A DNA stretch of 64,000 nt from Parvicella tangerina (lineage in GTDB: Bacteria; Bacteroidota; Bacteroidia; Flavobacteriales_D; Parvicellaceae), in contig NZ_OU015584.1 of the NCBI RefSeq assembly GCF_907165195.1, forward strand, positions 868,001 to 932,000, given 5' to 3'. A model generated the notes under the pieces. That model was not told the origin of the DNA. It saw only the letters and a program-made list of their open reading frames with translations, and made no database searches. Within the stretch, counting starts at the first letter, position 1. Each line of letters begins with the position of its first letter. A program made the position numbers and the translations under genes. Below are positions 12,778-20,392 of the stretch, one piece after another.

Positions 12778-13776
12778 ATGAAATTAGCCATAACAATAGC
12801 AGTGGGATTTGTTATGCTTGTTTTGTCGTCTTGCACGCAAGATGTTGTATTGGACGATGGGGGGTATGTTTTAGACCTGCCCCCTCATTTTCCAAAAATG
12901 AACATTCCAGCAGATAATCCATTAACACTTGAGAAAATAGCGTTCGGTAAGAAACTGTTTGAGGAGAAAAAGTTATCCAGTGATAACACGCTCGCTTGTA
13001 TTTCTTGCCATGATCCAAAACATGCTTTTAGTGATACCGTGTCTTTCAGCATTGGAGTTGATGGTCAGGTAGGAGAAAGAAACTCTACTCCTATATTCAA
13101 TATCGGTTATCATCCCGCTTTTTTTAGGGATGGGGGAGCATTGACACTTGAGATGCAGGTTGTAGCACCAATTGAGAATCCGCTTGAAATGAATGCGAAT
13201 ATTGCTGAAATCTGTCAAAAACTTGATGCAGATCCTGAGTATCATCAATTAGCAAATGATGTTTTTGGAACTGACTTTACACCTAATGTGTTGAGTAAAA
13301 GTTTAGCGTCATACCTCAGGACATTGATATCAGGGAACTCAAGATACGATCAATATCTATTGGGAGACAAAAGTGCGCTGACGGATCTCGAAAAAGAAGG
13401 TTTTGAAGTTTATGATGGAAAAGGGGGATGTTTTAAATGTCACGATGGGTTCGACTTCACGGATTATACCTATCAAAATATCGGACTTTATGAAGAATAT
13501 CAAGACCCAGGTAGAATGAAATTAACGGCAGACTCAGCTGATATGGGCTTGTTCATGGTACCTTCGTTAAGAAACCTTAGTTATACCGCTCCATATATGC
13601 ACGATGGAAGTCTTGAAACCTTGGAAGAAGTGATTGAGCTGTATGATGAAGGAGGAAAAGGACATTGGAATCAGGATTTTAGAATCTTTCCACTAGAGTT
13701 AACGGATCATGAAAAGACCGCTTTAAAAGCTTTTCTATTAACTTTGAATGACGAAGAATTTATCAATAACCATTAA
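12778..13776 (+). CDS. MauG/MbnH-type di-heme peroxidase, first copy
   Basis: A 332-residue lipoprotein (lipobox VLSSC) of the cytochrome c peroxidase/MauG superfamily, anchored facing the periplasm. It has two c-type haem motifs, CISCH at residues 74-78 and CFKCH near residue 220. The family segments GKKLFEEKKLSSDNTLACISCH, RNSTPIFNIGY, FFRDGG and APYMHDGSLETLEEV are present. Next to an MbnP-like gene it is more likely an MbnH-type enzyme acting on a protein tryptophan than a peroxide scavenger. Its stop is followed after 2 bases by the start of a diverged second copy. Confidence 0.88.
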   Translation: MKLAITIAVGFVMLVLSSCTQDVVLDDGGYVLDLPPHFPKMNIPADNPLTLEKIAFGKKLFEEKKLSSDNTLACISCHDPKHAFSDTVSFSIGVDGQVGERNSTPIFNIGYHPAFFRDGGALTLEMQVVAPIENPLEMNANIAEICQKLDADPEYHQLANDVFGTDFTPNVLSKSLASYLRTLISGNSRYDQYLLGDKSALTDLEKEGFEVYDGKGGCFKCHDGFDFTDYTYQNIGLYEEYQDPGRMKLTADSADMGLFMVPSLRNLSYTAPYMHDGSLETLEEVIELYDEGGKGHWNQDFRIFPLELTDHEKTALKAFLLTLNDEEFINNH

Positions 13777-13778
13777 AC

Positions 13779-14828
13779 TTGAAGTTTTTAATTCCAATAA
13801 TAGTCTTTGGCCTGGTGATAACAGGATGTCGGAAATCGCAAGAGCTTCCGCAGCCTGTTTATGCGCCAATACCGTATGAAGTTGATCTTCCAAGTCATTT
13901 CCCTGAGATGGAACAGCCTGCCGATAATCCAATGACTGTTCAGGGGGTTTATTTAGGAAGACATTTGTTTTGGGATGATCGATTGAGCGGTGATAATACA
14001 ATGGCTTGTGCAGATTGTCATTTGCCGCAATATGCGTTTAGCGATAATAACGCTACGAGTGTGGGTATTGACGGTGTTTTTGGTACAAGAAATTCAATGG
14101 TATTGCAAAACCTCGCTTGGTCAAATGATTTCTTTTGGGATGGAAGAGCCGTAACACTTGAGGAACAGGTGTTGATGCCAGTTGAAGACCCTATAGAAAT
14201 GCACGAGTCCTGGAGTCATTTTATGAATGAAATTCGGGACGATGAGACGTATAAAACTCTTTTTTTTGAAGCTTTTGGTGTGGTCGCATTTGATTCTACT
14301 CATGCCGCAAAGGCGCTTGCACAATTCCTGAGATCAATGGTCTCTTGTAATTCGAAGTACGACAAGATTTTAGAAGGAACAGCCACCTTTACTATTCAGG
14401 AACAAGCTGGTTTTGATTCATTTAATGCGCTTTCTGGGGGAGATTGTTTTCACTGCCATGGAGGATCTTTAACAACTGATTTTAGCTATAAGAATAATGG
14501 CTTAGATGCCGTTCCGCTAGATTCTGGAAGAGGTCGCGTAACCGGTGATCCTGCTGATTATTTTACATTTAAAGTTCCTCCTTTAAGAAACCTGGAGTAT
14601 TCTGCTCCCTATATGCATGATGGCCGTTTTGCCACGATTGATGAGGTGATTAATCATTATTCTGTTGGGCTCGAACATACGTCCCCAAATATTAGCCCCT
14701 TAATGGAATTCTCAGCACAAGGTGGAGTGCAGCTAGATCCTCAAGAAAGAGCTGAATTGAAGGCTTTTTTGATGACTTTTTCTGATCCTGACTTCATCAA
14801 TAATCCAGATTTTAGAAACCCCTGGTAG
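13779..14828 (+). CDS. MauG/MbnH-type di-heme peroxidase, second copy
   Basis: A 349-residue paralogue of the preceding gene. It starts with TTG at 13779: this is the only start that gives a complete lipoprotein signal (KFLIPIIVFGLVITGC), and an in-frame ATG appears only later. Haem motifs are CADCH at residues 77-81 and CFHCH near 225. The segment APYMHDGRFATIDEV is kept. The copies are clearly diverged rather than a recent duplication, so they may modify different residues or act in sequence. It closes the five-gene operon. Confidence 0.87.
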   Translation: MKFLIPIIVFGLVITGCRKSQELPQPVYAPIPYEVDLPSHFPEMEQPADNPMTVQGVYLGRHLFWDDRLSGDNTMACADCHLPQYAFSDNNATSVGIDGVFGTRNSMVLQNLAWSNDFFWDGRAVTLEEQVLMPVEDPIEMHESWSHFMNEIRDDETYKTLFFEAFGVVAFDSTHAAKALAQFLRSMVSCNSKYDKILEGTATFTIQEQAGFDSFNALSGGDCFHCHGGSLTTDFSYKNNGLDAVPLDSGRGRVTGDPADYFTFKVPPLRNLEYSAPYMHDGRFATIDEVINHYSVGLEHTSPNISPLMEFSAQGGVQLDPQERAELKAFLMTFSDPDFINNPDFRNPW

Positions 14829-14918: not shown

Positions 14919-15596
14919 ATGAATATTAAGACTAATATAACTCTTTCAGTATGTTCATCCACTTTTAAGAAAGATCCTGTTTCAAGTGAGTTGGGGAAAC
15001 GTATTTTAAGAGGTGCTATTGATCTGATCGATGAAGTAGGATTGGAGGCTTTTACCTTTAGAAAGTTGGCATTGAAGGTGTCTTCAACAGAAGCTTCTGT
15101 CTATCGATACTTTGAAAGTAAATACCACTTAATGGGATATTTAGTTTCTTGGTACTGGTCCTGGATGCAGTATAGGTTGACATTGAAGTTAGCTAATATT
15201 GAGGATCCCATGGATAAACTGAGCAGAACGATAACGATGCTTACAGAAAAAATTGAGGAGGATTCTGATTTTCTCTTTATTAACGAAGTAAAGCTCTCAA
15301 AGATCGTAGTTGCAGAATCCTCAAAGCTGATTTTACATAAGAATGTAGATGAGTCGAATGAACAAGGCTTTTTTGTGGACTATAAGAAGTTCGTACAGAT
15401 TGTTTCAGACATTGTCTTAGAATATAATCCATCGTACAAATACCCTCACATGTTGACATCAACGATTATTGAAGGAGTCCATTTTCAGTATTTCTTTACC
15501 GAACACTTGCCGAAGCTAACGGATGTCATAGAAGGAGAAAATTCCATCGAGACATTTTACAAAGAAATGCTTTTTAACCTGATTCAAAAGAAATAA
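14919..15596 (+). CDS. TetR/AcrR-family transcriptional regulator
   Basis: 225 residues from the ATG at 14919. The N-terminal helix-turn-helix shows RGAIDLIDEVGLEAFTFRKLALKVSSTEASVYRYFESKYHL in pattern: AIDLI..VG...FT...LA.KV..TE.S.YRYF..K, a clear TetR motif at about residues 30-75. The C-terminal ligand domain is not assignable to a subgroup. It is followed after 6 bases by the ABC-type exporter gene, so it is probably the local repressor of the exporter operon, acting at the palindrome 14881-14893. Confidence 0.88.
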   Translation: MNIKTNITLSVCSSTFKKDPVSSELGKRILRGAIDLIDEVGLEAFTFRKLALKVSSTEASVYRYFESKYHLMGYLVSWYWSWMQYRLTLKLANIEDPMDKLSRTITMLTEKIEEDSDFLFINEVKLSKIVVAESSKLILHKNVDESNEQGFFVDYKKFVQIVSDIVLEYNPSYKYPHMLTSTIIEGVHFQYFFTEHLPKLTDVIEGENSIETFYKEMLFNLIQKK

Positions 15597-15602
15597 AATA
15601 GT

Positions 15603-17315
15603 ATGAGTTCTATTTCAAATAAACGCCCCATGGAAAGGTTTTGGAAATTGCTGAAACCAGACCGAAAAGAGATCATTAATGTCTATGTCTATGCCTTGTT
15701 TAATGGTCTTGTGTACTTAACATTACCCTTGGGAATTCAAGCAATTATTAACTTGATTCAGGTTGGTTCAATCAATACTTCTTGGATTGTTTTGGTAAGT
15801 ATTGTGATTTTGGGAGTAGCTGTGAACGGTCTCCTACAAATCTATCAGTTAAAGATTACAGAAAACCTTCAGCAAAAAATATTTGCTCGAGCAGCATTTG
15901 AGTTTGCCTATCGAATTCCCAGGTTGAAATTGGAACGCATCTATCACAAGTATGCCCCTGAGTTGATGAACCGTTTCTTTGATATTCTATCCGTTCAAAA
16001 GGGACTTTCAAAAATATTAATTGACTTTTCTACGGCTTCCGTTCAAATCATTATTAGTTTGATCTTGCTATCACTCTATCACCCTTTCTTTGTGGTATTC
16101 AGTTTTTTACTGATCATTTTTCTTGTTCTTGTATTCAAATGGACGGGTAAAAGAGGTCTGAAAACAAGTTTAAAAGAGTCTGAATTTAAATATAAGATTG
16201 CCTATTGGTTGCAAGAAGTGGCAAGAGCTAATGTGACCTTTAAGTTAGCTGGGAATAGCAAATTACCCTTAGATAAAACAGATAGAAATGTAGAAGGTTA
16301 TCTTGCTTCCAGAGAAAAGCATTTTAAGGTTTTGCTTACTCAGTATTCTCTCATGGTCGTTTTCAAAGTGTTGGTTGCAACAGGATTATTGGTGATTGGA
16401 GGGATTTTAGTGGTAGAACGACAAATGAATATCGGTCAATTTGTTGCTGCCGAGATCATTGTTCTTTTAATTATGGGTGCGGTTGAGAAATTGATCTTTA
16501 CCATTGAGGTGATCTATGATGTGTTGACCTCTCTTGAAAAAATCGGACAGGTTACTGATCTTGAACTTGAGGTAGATGAACGCAAATTAGCTTCTCATGA
16601 TCAACTGGATCACGGAGTTTCCATTGATTTTGAAAAGGTAGACTTTAACTTTCCGGGTGAGGCAAAATTAGTGCTTCAAAACATCAATTTTAATATCGAA
16701 AAAGGTGAGCGGGTACTTGTTCACTCTGATAATGATCAATCGGCAAGGGCGTTGCTCTATTTGACAGCAGCCATGTTTCAAGCTTCAAAAGGCGTGATCA
16801 TGTTCAACGGGTTAATCAGTTCAAATATTGATCTTTCACTACTACGGAGTAGAACAGGAGATACGTTGCGAAAGGACATGTTGTTTCATGGTACAGTGCT
16901 AGAGAACATAACGATGAACAGACCTCAGGTAAGTGATGCTGAAGTGTTAGAATTAGCAGAGCGAATTTCGTTGACTTCTGAGTTAAAGTATTTTGAGAAA
17001 GGGTTTGATACAGTAATCAATCCTGATTCGATGAGCTATAGTAAGGAGTTTGTTCAAAAGATCATTTTGGCAAGAGCCATTGTCGGTAGACCAAAATTGT
17101 TGGTCCTGAAAGATCAGTTTTTAAAGTTAGACCGTAAGTGTAGAGAAGCGATGATGGAAATGATATTTAATGAGTTAACAGAAACTACCGTTGTGGTAGC
17201 ATCATCAAATACCGAACTGATCAACTATGTAGATAAGATCATCGTGCTAAAAGGTGCAGAAGTGGATATTGTGGGCGGTCCTAAAGAAGTTATTAATCAT
17301 ATTAATAAGGGATAA
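15603..17315 (+). CDS. ABC exporter-like protein with degenerate ATPase domain
   Basis: 570 residues built like a half-size exporter: six membrane segments in residues about 28-300 and a nucleotide-binding-type domain at about 338-570. The fold is recognisable (DFEKVDFNFPGEAKLVLQNI, LFHGTVLENITMNRPQVSDAE, ILARAIVGRPKLLVL). Every ATPase motif is replaced. Walker A is VHSDNDQSARAL (371-384) with no GKS/T. The Q-loop Gln is Arg/Lys near 423. The LSGGQ signature is MSYSKEF (477-483). Walker B DEP is KDQ (503-505). The H-loop His is Ser/Asn near 534. The reading frame is intact and the operon partners are HlyD and TolC-like, so it is maintained. Function unknown; ATP hydrolysis is unlikely. Confidence 0.85.
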   Translation: MSSISNKRPMERFWKLLKPDRKEIINVYVYALFNGLVYLTLPLGIQAIINLIQVGSINTSWIVLVSIVILGVAVNGLLQIYQLKITENLQQKIFARAAFEFAYRIPRLKLERIYHKYAPELMNRFFDILSVQKGLSKILIDFSTASVQIIISLILLSLYHPFFVVFSFLLIIFLVLVFKWTGKRGLKTSLKESEFKYKIAYWLQEVARANVTFKLAGNSKLPLDKTDRNVEGYLASREKHFKVLLTQYSLMVVFKVLVATGLLVIGGILVVERQMNIGQFVAAEIIVLLIMGAVEKLIFTIEVIYDVLTSLEKIGQVTDLELEVDERKLASHDQLDHGVSIDFEKVDFNFPGEAKLVLQNINFNIEKGERVLVHSDNDQSARALLYLTAAMFQASKGVIMFNGLISSNIDLSLLRSRTGDTLRKDMLFHGTVLENITMNRPQVSDAEVLELAERISLTSELKYFEKGFDTVINPDSMSYSKEFVQKIILARAIVGRPKLLVLKDQFLKLDRKCREAMMEMIFNELTETTVVVASSNTELINYVDKIIVLKGAEVDIVGGPKEVINHINKG

Positions 17316-17316
17316 A

Positions 17317-18666
17317 ATGCTAAATATTTCAAATAATTCTCGTGTCGGAAAAGATGTCCGAGCTTTGAACTATCAATCGCTGAAGCGAGTTGAAAGCAAG
17401 GTTTCTGGTAAAGTCTTTAAGAAAATAGCTATTTCTACGCTGGTTGTTTTATTGGTATTGATGTTCATCCCCTGGACACAAAACATTCGATCGAATGGTA
17501 AAGTAATTACGTTGACGCCTGATCAACGACCGCAAACTGTGAACTCAAGTATTGCTGGTACGGTTGATAAATGGTACGTTAAAGAAGGAGACGTAGTTCA
17601 AAAGGGAGATACAATTCTTCATTTAAAGGAGATCAAAAGTGAATACCTGGATCCTAATCTTGTAGCCAATACAGCTCAGCAAAAAGCATATAAACTGGAT
17701 GCAGTTAGTAATTATAAGCTCAAGGTGGAAGCGCTTCAAGAACAGCTGGTAGCCCAGGAAAAGGAAGCCTTATTGAAGTATAATCAGGCACAAATCAAAA
17801 TCCAACAAGCGGAGTTAAAGGTTCAAAGTGACAGTATTGCGGCTATTTCTGCAAAACTGAACTTGAAAACGATTGAAGACCAATATGTCCGTTTTGAAGA
17901 CTTGCAAAAGGAAGGCCTGAAGTCTCAAACCGATAAGGAGAACAGAGACATGAAGTTGCAGAATGCAAAAGCGTATGAAATTGAAGCAACCAATAAACTC
18001 CTCAACAGTCAATCAGAATTAATTAATGCTAAAGTGGATTTAAGTGCTGTGCAGACAAAATACCAGACTCTTATTGCTAAAACAAAATCTGATTTGTCGT
18101 CCGCTAACTCGAATTTACTGGATGCGCAGATTGAATATCAAAAGTTAGACAATAAGTTGAGTAATTACTCTATTAGAAATGACATGTACTACATTCTTGC
18201 GCCTCAAGATGGGTATGTAACTCAAACTTTGGTTAAGGGGGTAGGAGAGACGATTAAAGATGGAGAAGCAGTTGTTACCATCATGCCAGAGAAGTATGAA
18301 TATGCTGTGGAAATTTACGTAGATCCAATTGACCTACCCTTGGTAAATATTGGTCAACATGTTCGAATTCAATTTGATGGTTGGCCAGCAATTGTTTTCT
18401 CTGGGTGGCCAAATACGAGCTACGGAACCTATGGAGGAGAGGTGTATGCTGTGGATAAATTTATTAGTGAAAATGGAAAGTACAGAGTATTGGTCAAGCC
18501 AGAAGAGAGTGATCATCCATGGCCTAATCAATTGCGGTTTGGTAGTGGAACAAGAAGTTTTATCATGTTGAAAGATGTACCTATTTGGTATGAGTTATGG
18601 AGAAACATTAATGGCTTCCCTCCTGAATACTATCAAGTTGAATCAGCACCAAAAGCAAAAAAATGA
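17317..18666 (+). CDS. HlyD-family membrane-fusion protein
   Basis: 449 residues from the ATG at 17317, one base after the ABC-type gene stop; AAGGG upstream is a fair ribosome site. A single N-terminal membrane segment (residues about 36-53) precedes the first half of a biotinyl-lipoyl domain (SSIAGTVDKWYVKEGDVVQKGD). Next come two long coiled-coil helices (about 115-275), the second lipoyl half (ILAPQDGYVTQTLVKGVGE) and a beta-barrel domain. It should bridge the inner-membrane ABC-type protein and the TolC-like channel. Its stop overlaps the start of the next gene by 4 bases. Confidence 0.92.
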   Translation: MLNISNNSRVGKDVRALNYQSLKRVESKVSGKVFKKIAISTLVVLLVLMFIPWTQNIRSNGKVITLTPDQRPQTVNSSIAGTVDKWYVKEGDVVQKGDTILHLKEIKSEYLDPNLVANTAQQKAYKLDAVSNYKLKVEALQEQLVAQEKEALLKYNQAQIKIQQAELKVQSDSIAAISAKLNLKTIEDQYVRFEDLQKEGLKSQTDKENRDMKLQNAKAYEIEATNKLLNSQSELINAKVDLSAVQTKYQTLIAKTKSDLSSANSNLLDAQIEYQKLDNKLSNYSIRNDMYYILAPQDGYVTQTLVKGVGETIKDGEAVVTIMPEKYEYAVEIYVDPIDLPLVNIGQHVRIQFDGWPAIVFSGWPNTSYGTYGGEVYAVDKFISENGKYRVLVKPEESDHPWPNQLRFGSGTRSFIMLKDVPIWYELWRNINGFPPEYYQVESAPKAKK

Positions 18667-20060
18667 AGAAGATTGGTTTAATATTGATGCTTTGGTTGCA
18701 ATGGTTGCCGCTGTTTCTGTTCGCACAGCCTGAATCTGGAGAAGTGATGAGTTATGAGCAGTTCATTGGGGTTGTAAAACAACACCACCCAGTAATGATT
18801 CAGGCGAATGAAATTTACAATTCCGCAGAAGGAGCGCTATTGGAATCCAGGGGAGGATTTGATCCTGTGCTAAAAGGTGATCTTCAGCAAAAAGAGTACG
18901 AAGGAACTCGTTACTTTCAACTCTCAGAAGCAGGTTTAGTTGTGCCAACTTGGATAGGTGCGAATATTAAATTAGGGTATACGCAAAGTATTGGTGATTA
19001 TATTAATGTCATGGATAAACTGCCGTCTAATGGTTTAGTATTCGCAGGTGTCGAGCTTCCATTAGGTCAAGGGCTGTTTTATGATAAGAGAAGGGCGGCA
19101 GTTGATAAGGCTAAATTGTATGTAGCTATGGCAGGTGCAGAGCGTTCTTTATTGGTCAATGATGTTATTTATCAGGCTTCGATGGATTATTGGGAGTGGT
19201 TTGAGAAGCATCATCAGGTATTAGCAGTTGATAATCTACTTAAAAAATCGGCTGAACGACTGAAGAATATAAAACGAAGTGCAGAGCTGGGAGATAAACC
19301 CTACGTAGATACTTTGGAAGCTTCTATTCAATTTCAAAACTTTCAATCGCTTTATATGGACCTCAAGATGGCGGAGGAGAATGCTAGGGCATACGTGAAT
19401 ATACATCTATGGGCCGATGGGATATTGCCGCTAGAGCTGGATACGTCCAGTATACCTGAGCAACTAAATCGCGCTACGCTTGACATGAGTGTTTGGCAAA
19501 TGGCAAATGACACCTTAATCGCTAATCACCCTAAACTGAATACCAAGCAGTTTAAAATTGATATAAATGAGGTTGAACTTCGTTTAGCTCGAGAATATTT
19601 GAAACCTAAGTTGAACATTAATTACAATGTATTGAATGAACCCGTGGGAGGTGACTTAGTAGGGTTTAATCCCAACGATTATAAGTTTGGTGTCGGTGTA
19701 GCTGTACCGCTCTTTTTGAGGAGTTCAAGAGGACAGATACAAAAGCAAAAAGCAGAGCTTCAGATAGCTAAAGCTGATTACGAATGGACGCGGGAGCAAC
19801 TTAGAGCAAAGTTAGTGGCAACTGTTAATAAATCTAAAAATTCAGTAGCTCAGGCCCAATTGCTTTCTGAAGTTGTTGTTAATTATCGTAACTTAGTAAA
19901 TGCCGAAAGAAAACTATTTGAGATCGGTGAAAGTTCATTGATGATGTTAAACTACCGGGAGATTGCACTATTGGAATCTGAAATCAAATGGATTGAAAAG
20001 ATTAGTAAGTCTAAGGTAGCCGAAATTCAGATTCTATATGCAATCGGCCAATTAAACTAG
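18663..20060 (+). CDS. TolC-family outer-membrane efflux protein
   Basis: 465 residues with a signal peptide ending near LFAQ. The sequence has the TolC layout: two strand segments and two pairs of long helices with heptads (for example AEENARAYVNIHLWADG, QKQKAELQIAKADYEWTREQ), though the overall match is to the divergent TolC-like proteins of Bacteroidota. It would provide the outer-membrane exit duct for the exporter encoded immediately upstream. The start overlaps the hlyD-type stop (ATGA), indicating coupled translation. Confidence 0.87.
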   Translation: MKKIGLILMLWLQWLPLFLFAQPESGEVMSYEQFIGVVKQHHPVMIQANEIYNSAEGALLESRGGFDPVLKGDLQQKEYEGTRYFQLSEAGLVVPTWIGANIKLGYTQSIGDYINVMDKLPSNGLVFAGVELPLGQGLFYDKRRAAVDKAKLYVAMAGAERSLLVNDVIYQASMDYWEWFEKHHQVLAVDNLLKKSAERLKNIKRSAELGDKPYVDTLEASIQFQNFQSLYMDLKMAEENARAYVNIHLWADGILPLELDTSSIPEQLNRATLDMSVWQMANDTLIANHPKLNTKQFKIDINEVELRLAREYLKPKLNINYNVLNEPVGGDLVGFNPNDYKFGVGVAVPLFLRSSRGQIQKQKAELQIAKADYEWTREQLRAKLVATVNKSKNSVAQAQLLSEVVVNYRNLVNAERKLFEIGESSLMMLNYREIALLESEIKWIEKISKSKVAEIQILYAIGQLN

Positions 20061-20065
20061 ATGAT

Positions 20066-20392
20066 ATGGTACAGGTTGTTTTGCAAGATAGAAGCGTTAA
20101 GAATTTAGAGCAAATTTTGAGTAGATTGCTGAATAATCAATTAGTGACTAGCCCAACGATTGTGGAAAGTCAACGGTATCAGCCACTAAAAGGAGGTCAC
20201 TTCCTTAAGTATAAATATTACCAACTTACGGCTATATCCAGATCGATTCATTCTAAAGAGATACTTGATATAGTTGAAGAGCTAAAGAATAGCAATTCTT
20301 TAGAGTTTTATACTGTTCCCATAGTGGACATGAACTGGAACCAAGCTTCTAATGTAAAAGGGTATTTCGACAATGTGAAAATGGTTTCCTAG
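20066..20392 (+). CDS. CutA-like small protein
   Basis: A 108-residue soluble protein 5 bases after the TolC-type gene, so the likely last gene of the exporter operon. The pattern resembles CutA1: an N-terminal strand then LEQILSRLLNNQLVTSPTIV, a central YQPLKGGHFLKYKYYQLTAISRSIHSKEILDIVEEL and a final EFYTVPIVDMN then a Y-containing helix. CutA trimers are linked to divalent metal tolerance, but the usual conserved His-Pro-Tyr segment is missing, so this is a distant relative at best. It is convergent with the SafE-like gene, only 3 bases apart. Confidence 0.5.
   Translation: MVQVVLQDRSVKNLEQILSRLLNNQLVTSPTIVESQRYQPLKGGHFLKYKYYQLTAISRSIHSKEILDIVEELKNSNSLEFYTVPIVDMNWNQASNVKGYFDNVKMVS

Follow-up and report, generated by a model that had tools for sequence, protein, structure and literature searches.

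Tripartite exporters are described as being energised by ABC, RND, or MFS transporters, at least in the accessible part of one source (PMC8277102), and the debate over whether ABC exporters can be driven by ion gradients has drawn on engineered LmrA-MD and on SbmA. SbmA/BacA (SLiPT) is presented, in the accessible part of its description, as a proton-driven ABC-exporter transmembrane domain (TMD) that lacks a nucleotide-binding domain (NBD) and descends from a full ABC transporter; it imports peptides, has an extra TM0, and has lost its coupling helices, and that part mentions no HlyD/TolC operon (PMC13316013). LmrA-MD is an engineered truncation of the active ATPase LmrA and is not tripartite; according to the accessible sections of two studies, it was proton-coupled without an NBD and was blocked by E314A in TM6 (PMC2704374), and later work recorded no ATP-induced current (PMC6155054). 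At site 1 of Pdr5, the Lys of Walker A, the Glu of Walker B, and the signature and H-loop residues are lost (PMC7756269, accessible part), and Pdr5, TM287/288, TmrAB, and ABCB2/B3 keep one working site.

Here we analysed an exporter gene in a 64,000-nucleotide stretch of the Parvicella tangerina genome (NZ_OU015584.1, positions 868,001 to 932,000; hereafter the window). It belongs to a family in which an ABC-based tripartite exporter has dropped the ATPase yet kept the operon and the membrane domain, so that the annotation "ABC transporter ATP-binding protein" is misleading for such genes. The window protein shares the full-length fold and the gene order ABC-HlyD-TolC with type I secretion/PCAT exporters (HlyB-HlyD-TolC, PrtD, PCAT1, and ComA) but, unlike them, lacks catalytic ATPase residues and does not reach the NCBIfam cut-off. 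The losses are like those at Pdr5 site 1, although a homodimer here would have no working site at all. Some relatives are, like SbmA/BacA, an ABC-exporter TMD without an NBD, whereas the window protein still has one; these NBD-less members also resemble the TMD dimer of LmrA-MD, which is ion-coupled with a key TM6 Glu, E314 (accessible parts of PMC2704374 and PMC6155054), and E284 of the present family is only a candidate counterpart of that residue. A literature search, with subscription journals mostly outside its coverage, returned no paper describing this exporter family, and the first 300,000 characters of a Chem Rev survey contain no NBD-less wording.

The exporter gene and its operon

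The gene spans 15603..17315 (window positions; all features given here are on the plus strand), and its ORF encodes 570 aa plus a stop codon. The intact ORF, the domain matches, and an AlphaFold2 model identify the product as a degenerate ABC exporter half-transporter with a TMD and an NBD. The TMD (residues 1-330; 15603..16592) is the conserved half and matched ABC_membrane (PF00664) above the Pfam cut-off (37.1 bits versus 28; residues 26-293), whereas the degenerate NBD (residues 340-560; 16620..17282) left the protein short of the cut-off for ABC_tran (PF00005; 19.9 bits versus 25). Mean identity to the family is 0.596 for the window TMD and 0.293 for the window NBD. The best NCBIfam match was TIGR03375 (cut-off 693.1 bits), and the type I secretion permease/ATPase models TIGR03375/01842/01846 scored 154.7/119.3/109.6 bits, all far under their cut-offs. 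The AlphaFold2 model, computed with 86 family members, has a mean pLDDT of 86.9 and, judged from secondary structure and confidence, a predicted full-length exporter fold in which that of the NBD is kept. Its closest folds by Foldseek and VIA-align were PCAT1, TM287/288, TmrAB, HlyB, and PrtD, with full-length VIA-align Z scores of 29.5 for HlyB, 29.1 for PCAT1, and 28.2 for PrtD. The initial annotation, which held that the membrane half and the overall NBD fold are kept and that the gene is not decayed, is borne out by the PF00664 match, the model, and the intact frame.

The TetR, ABC, HlyD, and TolC genes are consecutive and are separated by a few bases or overlap, and domain matches at the neighbouring genes agree with the partners originally proposed. 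The first gene of the operon encodes a TetR-family regulator of 225 aa (14919..15596; PF00440 TetR_N, 2.4e-8), with a homologue in 66/90 related loci. The ATG of the HlyD/EmrA-type periplasmic adaptor gene (17317..18666; PF13437, 5.2e-14; homologue in 90/90 related loci) immediately follows the ABC stop codon; the adaptor matched TIGR01843 at 1.4e-26, under that model's cut-off. The adaptor gene overlaps by 4 nt with that of a TolC-type outer-membrane factor (18663..20060; PF02321, 1.5e-34; homologue in 73/90 related loci). The 90 related loci comprise those from the family genomes and the nearest 80 of 460 matches in a species collection, duplicates included, and many of the TolC and TetR absences among them are contig ends. 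The ABC gene, HlyD adaptor, and TolC have the operon layout of a type I secretion system, and Bacteroidota orthologues keep the order (TetR)-ABC-HlyD-TolC.

No other neighbour family was common to more than 9/80 loci, the largest cluster (9/80) consists partly of antisense ORFs, and no conserved neighbour suggested a substrate. A 108-aa ORF (20066-20392) that starts 5 nt past the TolC gene has no Pfam or NCBIfam match; its blastp relatives lie near only 3/90 related operons (L036, L039, and L056), so it is not a constant part of the operon. Directly upstream of the operon (12778-14828) lies a tandem pair of genes for MauG-type di-haem cytochrome c peroxidases.

ATPase motifs in the window gene and its family

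Motif positions were read from alignments of the window protein to its family and, via the family profile, to P-gp/ABCB4. The former Walker A is at residues 374-381 (HSDNDQSA; 16722..16745), where the G-x4-GK[ST] positions read H374...S380-A381. The Q-loop Gln position is R423 (16869..16871), the former LSGGQ signature at residues 479-483 is YSKEF (Y479...F483; 17037..17051), the Walker B Asp-Glu position is K503-D504 (17109..17114), and the H-loop His position is S535 (17205..17207). D510, the D-loop Asp, is the sole examined NBD motif residue still present, so that among the features of an ATP-hydrolysing ABC exporter, the window protein has the TMD fold and lacks Walker A, Walker B, LSGGQ, and the H-loop His. 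The alignment thus agrees with the original reading that all five motifs lack their catalytic residues. It could be asked whether the motifs had shifted to other positions; this was ruled out by a string search of the whole window protein, which found no G-x4-GK[ST], GK[ST], SGG, or hydrophobic-DE string anywhere else, indicating that the motifs were not relocated.

A close homologue, at about half identity, was found in 11/39 genomes of the window's own taxonomic family and in 1/3 other genomes of its genus. Within a Bacteroidota sample, 99/392 genomes had a member, giving 100 rows that divide into 68 degenerate, 26 ATPase-like, and six NBD-less; all 26 ATPase-like rows lie outside the window's class, as do five degenerate ones. 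All of the distinct aligned species-collection loci (76/76; the 80 nearest of 460 matches minus four duplicates of genome rows) were degenerate. Duplicates (L026, L035, L058, and L063), a duplicate of the window (L100), and open-ended (L014), truncated (L192), and IS3-interrupted (L304) loci were dropped from the counts. One typical Bacteroidota-like member (L041) is on a contig titled Saccharospirillaceae (Gammaproteobacteria), which reflects either mis-binning or transfer.

The resulting alignment holds 155 degenerate members, including the window. None has the Walker B Asp-Glu pair (Asp alone in four, Glu in eight), none has an SGG[QE] signature, and the H-loop His occurs in 1/156 family members, but 141/155 keep a full Walker A and 150/155 its Lys (K381). 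Among 25 ATPase-like members, Walker B Asp is present in 25 and Glu in 23, and the H-loop His in 19; SGG[QE] occurs in only one, so their signature deviates as well. The window protein and one other member (L137) have lost Walker A; it is disrupted in one from Aureibacter (L308), and its Lys is replaced by Arg in three (L068, L076, and L084); the likely sister of the window (L016; tree support 94, and 91/64 with the outgroup) retains it. Loss of the signature, Walker B, Q-loop, and H-loop is family-wide and that of Walker A is confined to the window lineage and a few others; most motif loss appears ancestral to the clade, with only Walker A lost late. The substitutions seen in the window thus recur in related genomes, and its state is not unique. 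Measured against its own TMD, the NBD of the window protein falls further short than that of any other of the 155 members (-4.26 SD; L137 is second at -3.78), and the protein departs from the family at 8/25 conserved NBD columns versus 5/112 TMD columns (Fisher p = 3e-4). Seven loci (L147, L152, L163, L168, L171, L173, and L270) and the ATPase-like loci are longer at the N-terminus by about 150-250 aa, a segment that had no Pfam family in the five that were scanned or tested and no PDB match in one search; we presume that it may be a remnant of an HlyB-like domain.

Constraint on the two domains and loss of the NBD

Conservation of the two domains differed among the groups. Degenerate pairs average an identity of 0.579 in the TMD and 0.371 in the NBD, with the NBD below the TMD in 11,779/11,781 pairs; the corresponding values in ATPase-like pairs are 0.491 and 0.432 (NBD below TMD in 212/300), and this proportion, together with SGG[QE] in 1/25, makes the contrast between the two groups a graded one. 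The control was a canonical exporter encoded in the window genome, together with its 29 homologues from the phylum; there the order is reversed (TMD 0.326, NBD 0.600; NBD below TMD in 0/435). NBD omega was 0.019-0.197 in 20/37 degenerate pairs with a dS estimate, several with dS above 1 and none containing the window; these low values indicate that the degenerate NBD genes are not decaying and are still under selection.

The six NBD-less matches of the phylum sample are just about 335 aa long. A search of their families yielded 45 rows in 44/201, 34 in 33/101, and 23 in 23/100 genomes, so that a membrane half of about 335 aa is present in 100/402 genomes of three families (102 rows), with stop-to-stop frames of 333-424 aa. 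Two further frames of 343 and 320 aa (G548 and G553) were left out of this count because their scores resemble those of full-length members; they may be truncated, frameshifted, or separate NBD losses. In 70/70 NBD-less loci read, the HlyD adaptor gene directly follows the membrane-half gene, usually with an 8-nt overlap. Three NBD-less proteins matched only PF00664 in Pfam at E <= 0.01 and, unlike SbmA, had no match to the SbmA/BacA family. An AlphaFold model of an NBD-less protein reached a pLDDT of 68.8, and its best Foldseek match, to ABCB8 and PCAT1, was weak (E 1.2e-4).

The NBD-less rows form a single clade (FastTree support 99; 100% of 200 bootstrap trees but SH-aLRT 41 in the outgroup tree). 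In the midpoint-rooted FastTree tree, degenerate and NBD-less rows stand together on one side with support 100; with exporters of the own genome as outgroup, the base of the tree is not resolved and the degenerate group requires two changes. Sixty TMD columns are conserved at >=90% in both groups, and from full-length to NBD-less proteins, conservation of ICL2 drops from 0.65 to 0.54, whereas that of ICL1/TM3 does not (0.80 to 0.89).

Proposed energy source of an exporter without ATPase motifs

The recurrence of the losses across the family, the retained operon, and the NBD-less clade support the earlier view of an operon-coupled exporter without an ATPase. The NBD half has lost its catalytic motifs with the operon intact, and ATP is probably not what powers the pump. 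We give about even weight to the reading that this is a tripartite exporter whose ATPase was discarded stepwise and which is now driven by an ion gradient; the energy source is one we infer, and an ion gradient is preferred since LmrA-MD and SbmA indicate that an ABC TMD can use a proton gradient. The ancestor would have been a type-I-secretion/PCAT-like ABC half-transporter. Its catalytic residues were lost clade-wide while operon and TMD were conserved, followed by loss of the P-loop in single lineages (the window, L137, and L308), and the entire NBD was lost in one clade; the sequences show each of these three losses. A TMD homodimer with HlyD and TolC may export a substrate that is either a small molecule or a peptide, with TetR in control. 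By analogy with SbmA and LmrA-MD, a gradient of protons or other ions would power alternating access by way of conserved carboxylates in the TMD, E284 being the first candidate. The retained NBD would be structural or at most ATP-binding, and in the window presumably not even the latter. Several observations count against a gradient: the full Walker A in 141 of the 155 degenerate members suggests a nucleotide role in most of them, the NBD-less clade keeps ICL1, unlike SbmA, which has no coupling helices, and later work on LmrA-MD recorded no ATP-induced current.

The conserved TMD charges include E87, E120, D127, K133, K137, E192, K196, H240, E284, E295, K296, and D306, and E87, E120, E192, and E295 are missing in the three sphingomonad proteins tabulated. 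E284 (16452..16454), early in TM6, is a candidate ion-coupling carboxylate, with Glu in 154/155 degenerate, 70/70 NBD-less, 24/25 ATPase-like, and 6/6 sphingomonad proteins, unlike ComA and PCAT1, which have a TM6 Asn at the aligned position. A gain of E284 upon ATPase loss was ruled out by its presence in the ATPase-like members; because it predates that loss, it can be regarded as no more than a pre-adaptation.

The prevalence of Walker A and of K381 also fits an exporter that binds ATP without hydrolysing it, in which bound ATP gates or senses and the window is a derived exception. The NBD is under purifying selection in close pairs, and degenerate sites of ABCC7 can hold ATP for minutes (accessible part of PMC7756269), but the signature, Walker B, and H-loop required for a closed ATP dimer are gone, binding without hydrolysis yields no net energy, and the operon was kept where the P-loop or the whole NBD was lost, so we consider this rather unlikely. 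It is more doubtful still that the inner-membrane protein is a passive conduit, scaffold, or sensor that just holds HlyD-TolC or gates downhill efflux: the ATPase residues are absent and energy coupling is something we infer, but the TMD, including cavity and helix charges, is conserved beyond the needs of a scaffold. An unlinked second ABC protein could contribute the ATPase, either as the other half of a heterodimer or as an independent NBD subunit. The window genome does encode four other full-length ABC exporters, natural heterodimers have one degenerate site (accessible part of PMC7756269), ICL1 is retained in NBD-less proteins, and wider flanks of six NBD-less loci gave a partial 42-bit NBD match (L133) and a 12-bit match (L130), both distant from the operon. 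Against it, an extra ABC-like ORF lies near the operon in just 1/90 related loci (L092), no NBD-profile ORF was found in the ~1.5-kb flanks of the 70 NBD-less loci read, and ICL2, the second NBD-docking element, is less conserved in that clade, which leaves this arrangement improbable. Of the three options originally raised, a scaffold and another ATPase are less likely than a different energy source, given the NBD-less members and the lack of a linked second ABC gene. That the window NBD departs furthest from its family might point to a pseudogene or an artefact of this genome; with an intact 570-codon frame, a conserved TMD, the confident model, a one-contig genome that is 99.83% complete, and most losses recurring in independent genomes, we find this scarcely credible, and decay or sequencing error was rejected as unlikely. 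The closest paralogue in the window genome (L002, G000:C1:1666595) has Walker A and LSGGQ, and its Walker B, FDD, looks like that of the weak half of a heterodimer.

The same ABC-HlyD-TolC order is found on plasmids of Novosphingobium, Sphingobium, Croceicoccus, and Sphingomonas. Of 21 plasmid records, ten regions were fetched and nine were read for motifs; 14 records are sphingomonad, of which six were read. All six proteins lack Walker A, Walker B, and the H-loop His, two have an LSVGE string at the signature, and the NBD is less conserved than the TMD in 3/3 pairs; the loss of the ATPase motifs is repeated in these operons. A gradient-driven pump derived from an ABC exporter would be a fourth way of powering tripartite exporters, with all stages alive (ATPase-like, ATP-binding only, motif-free, and NBD-less) and reached again in sphingomonads; we advance this tentatively, at slightly less than even confidence. 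The ion-gradient question becomes directly testable in a naturally occurring family that includes all intermediates. On a plasmid of Sphingopyxis sp. 113P3 (L304), an IS3-family transposase lies within the region expected to hold the rest of the ABC gene.
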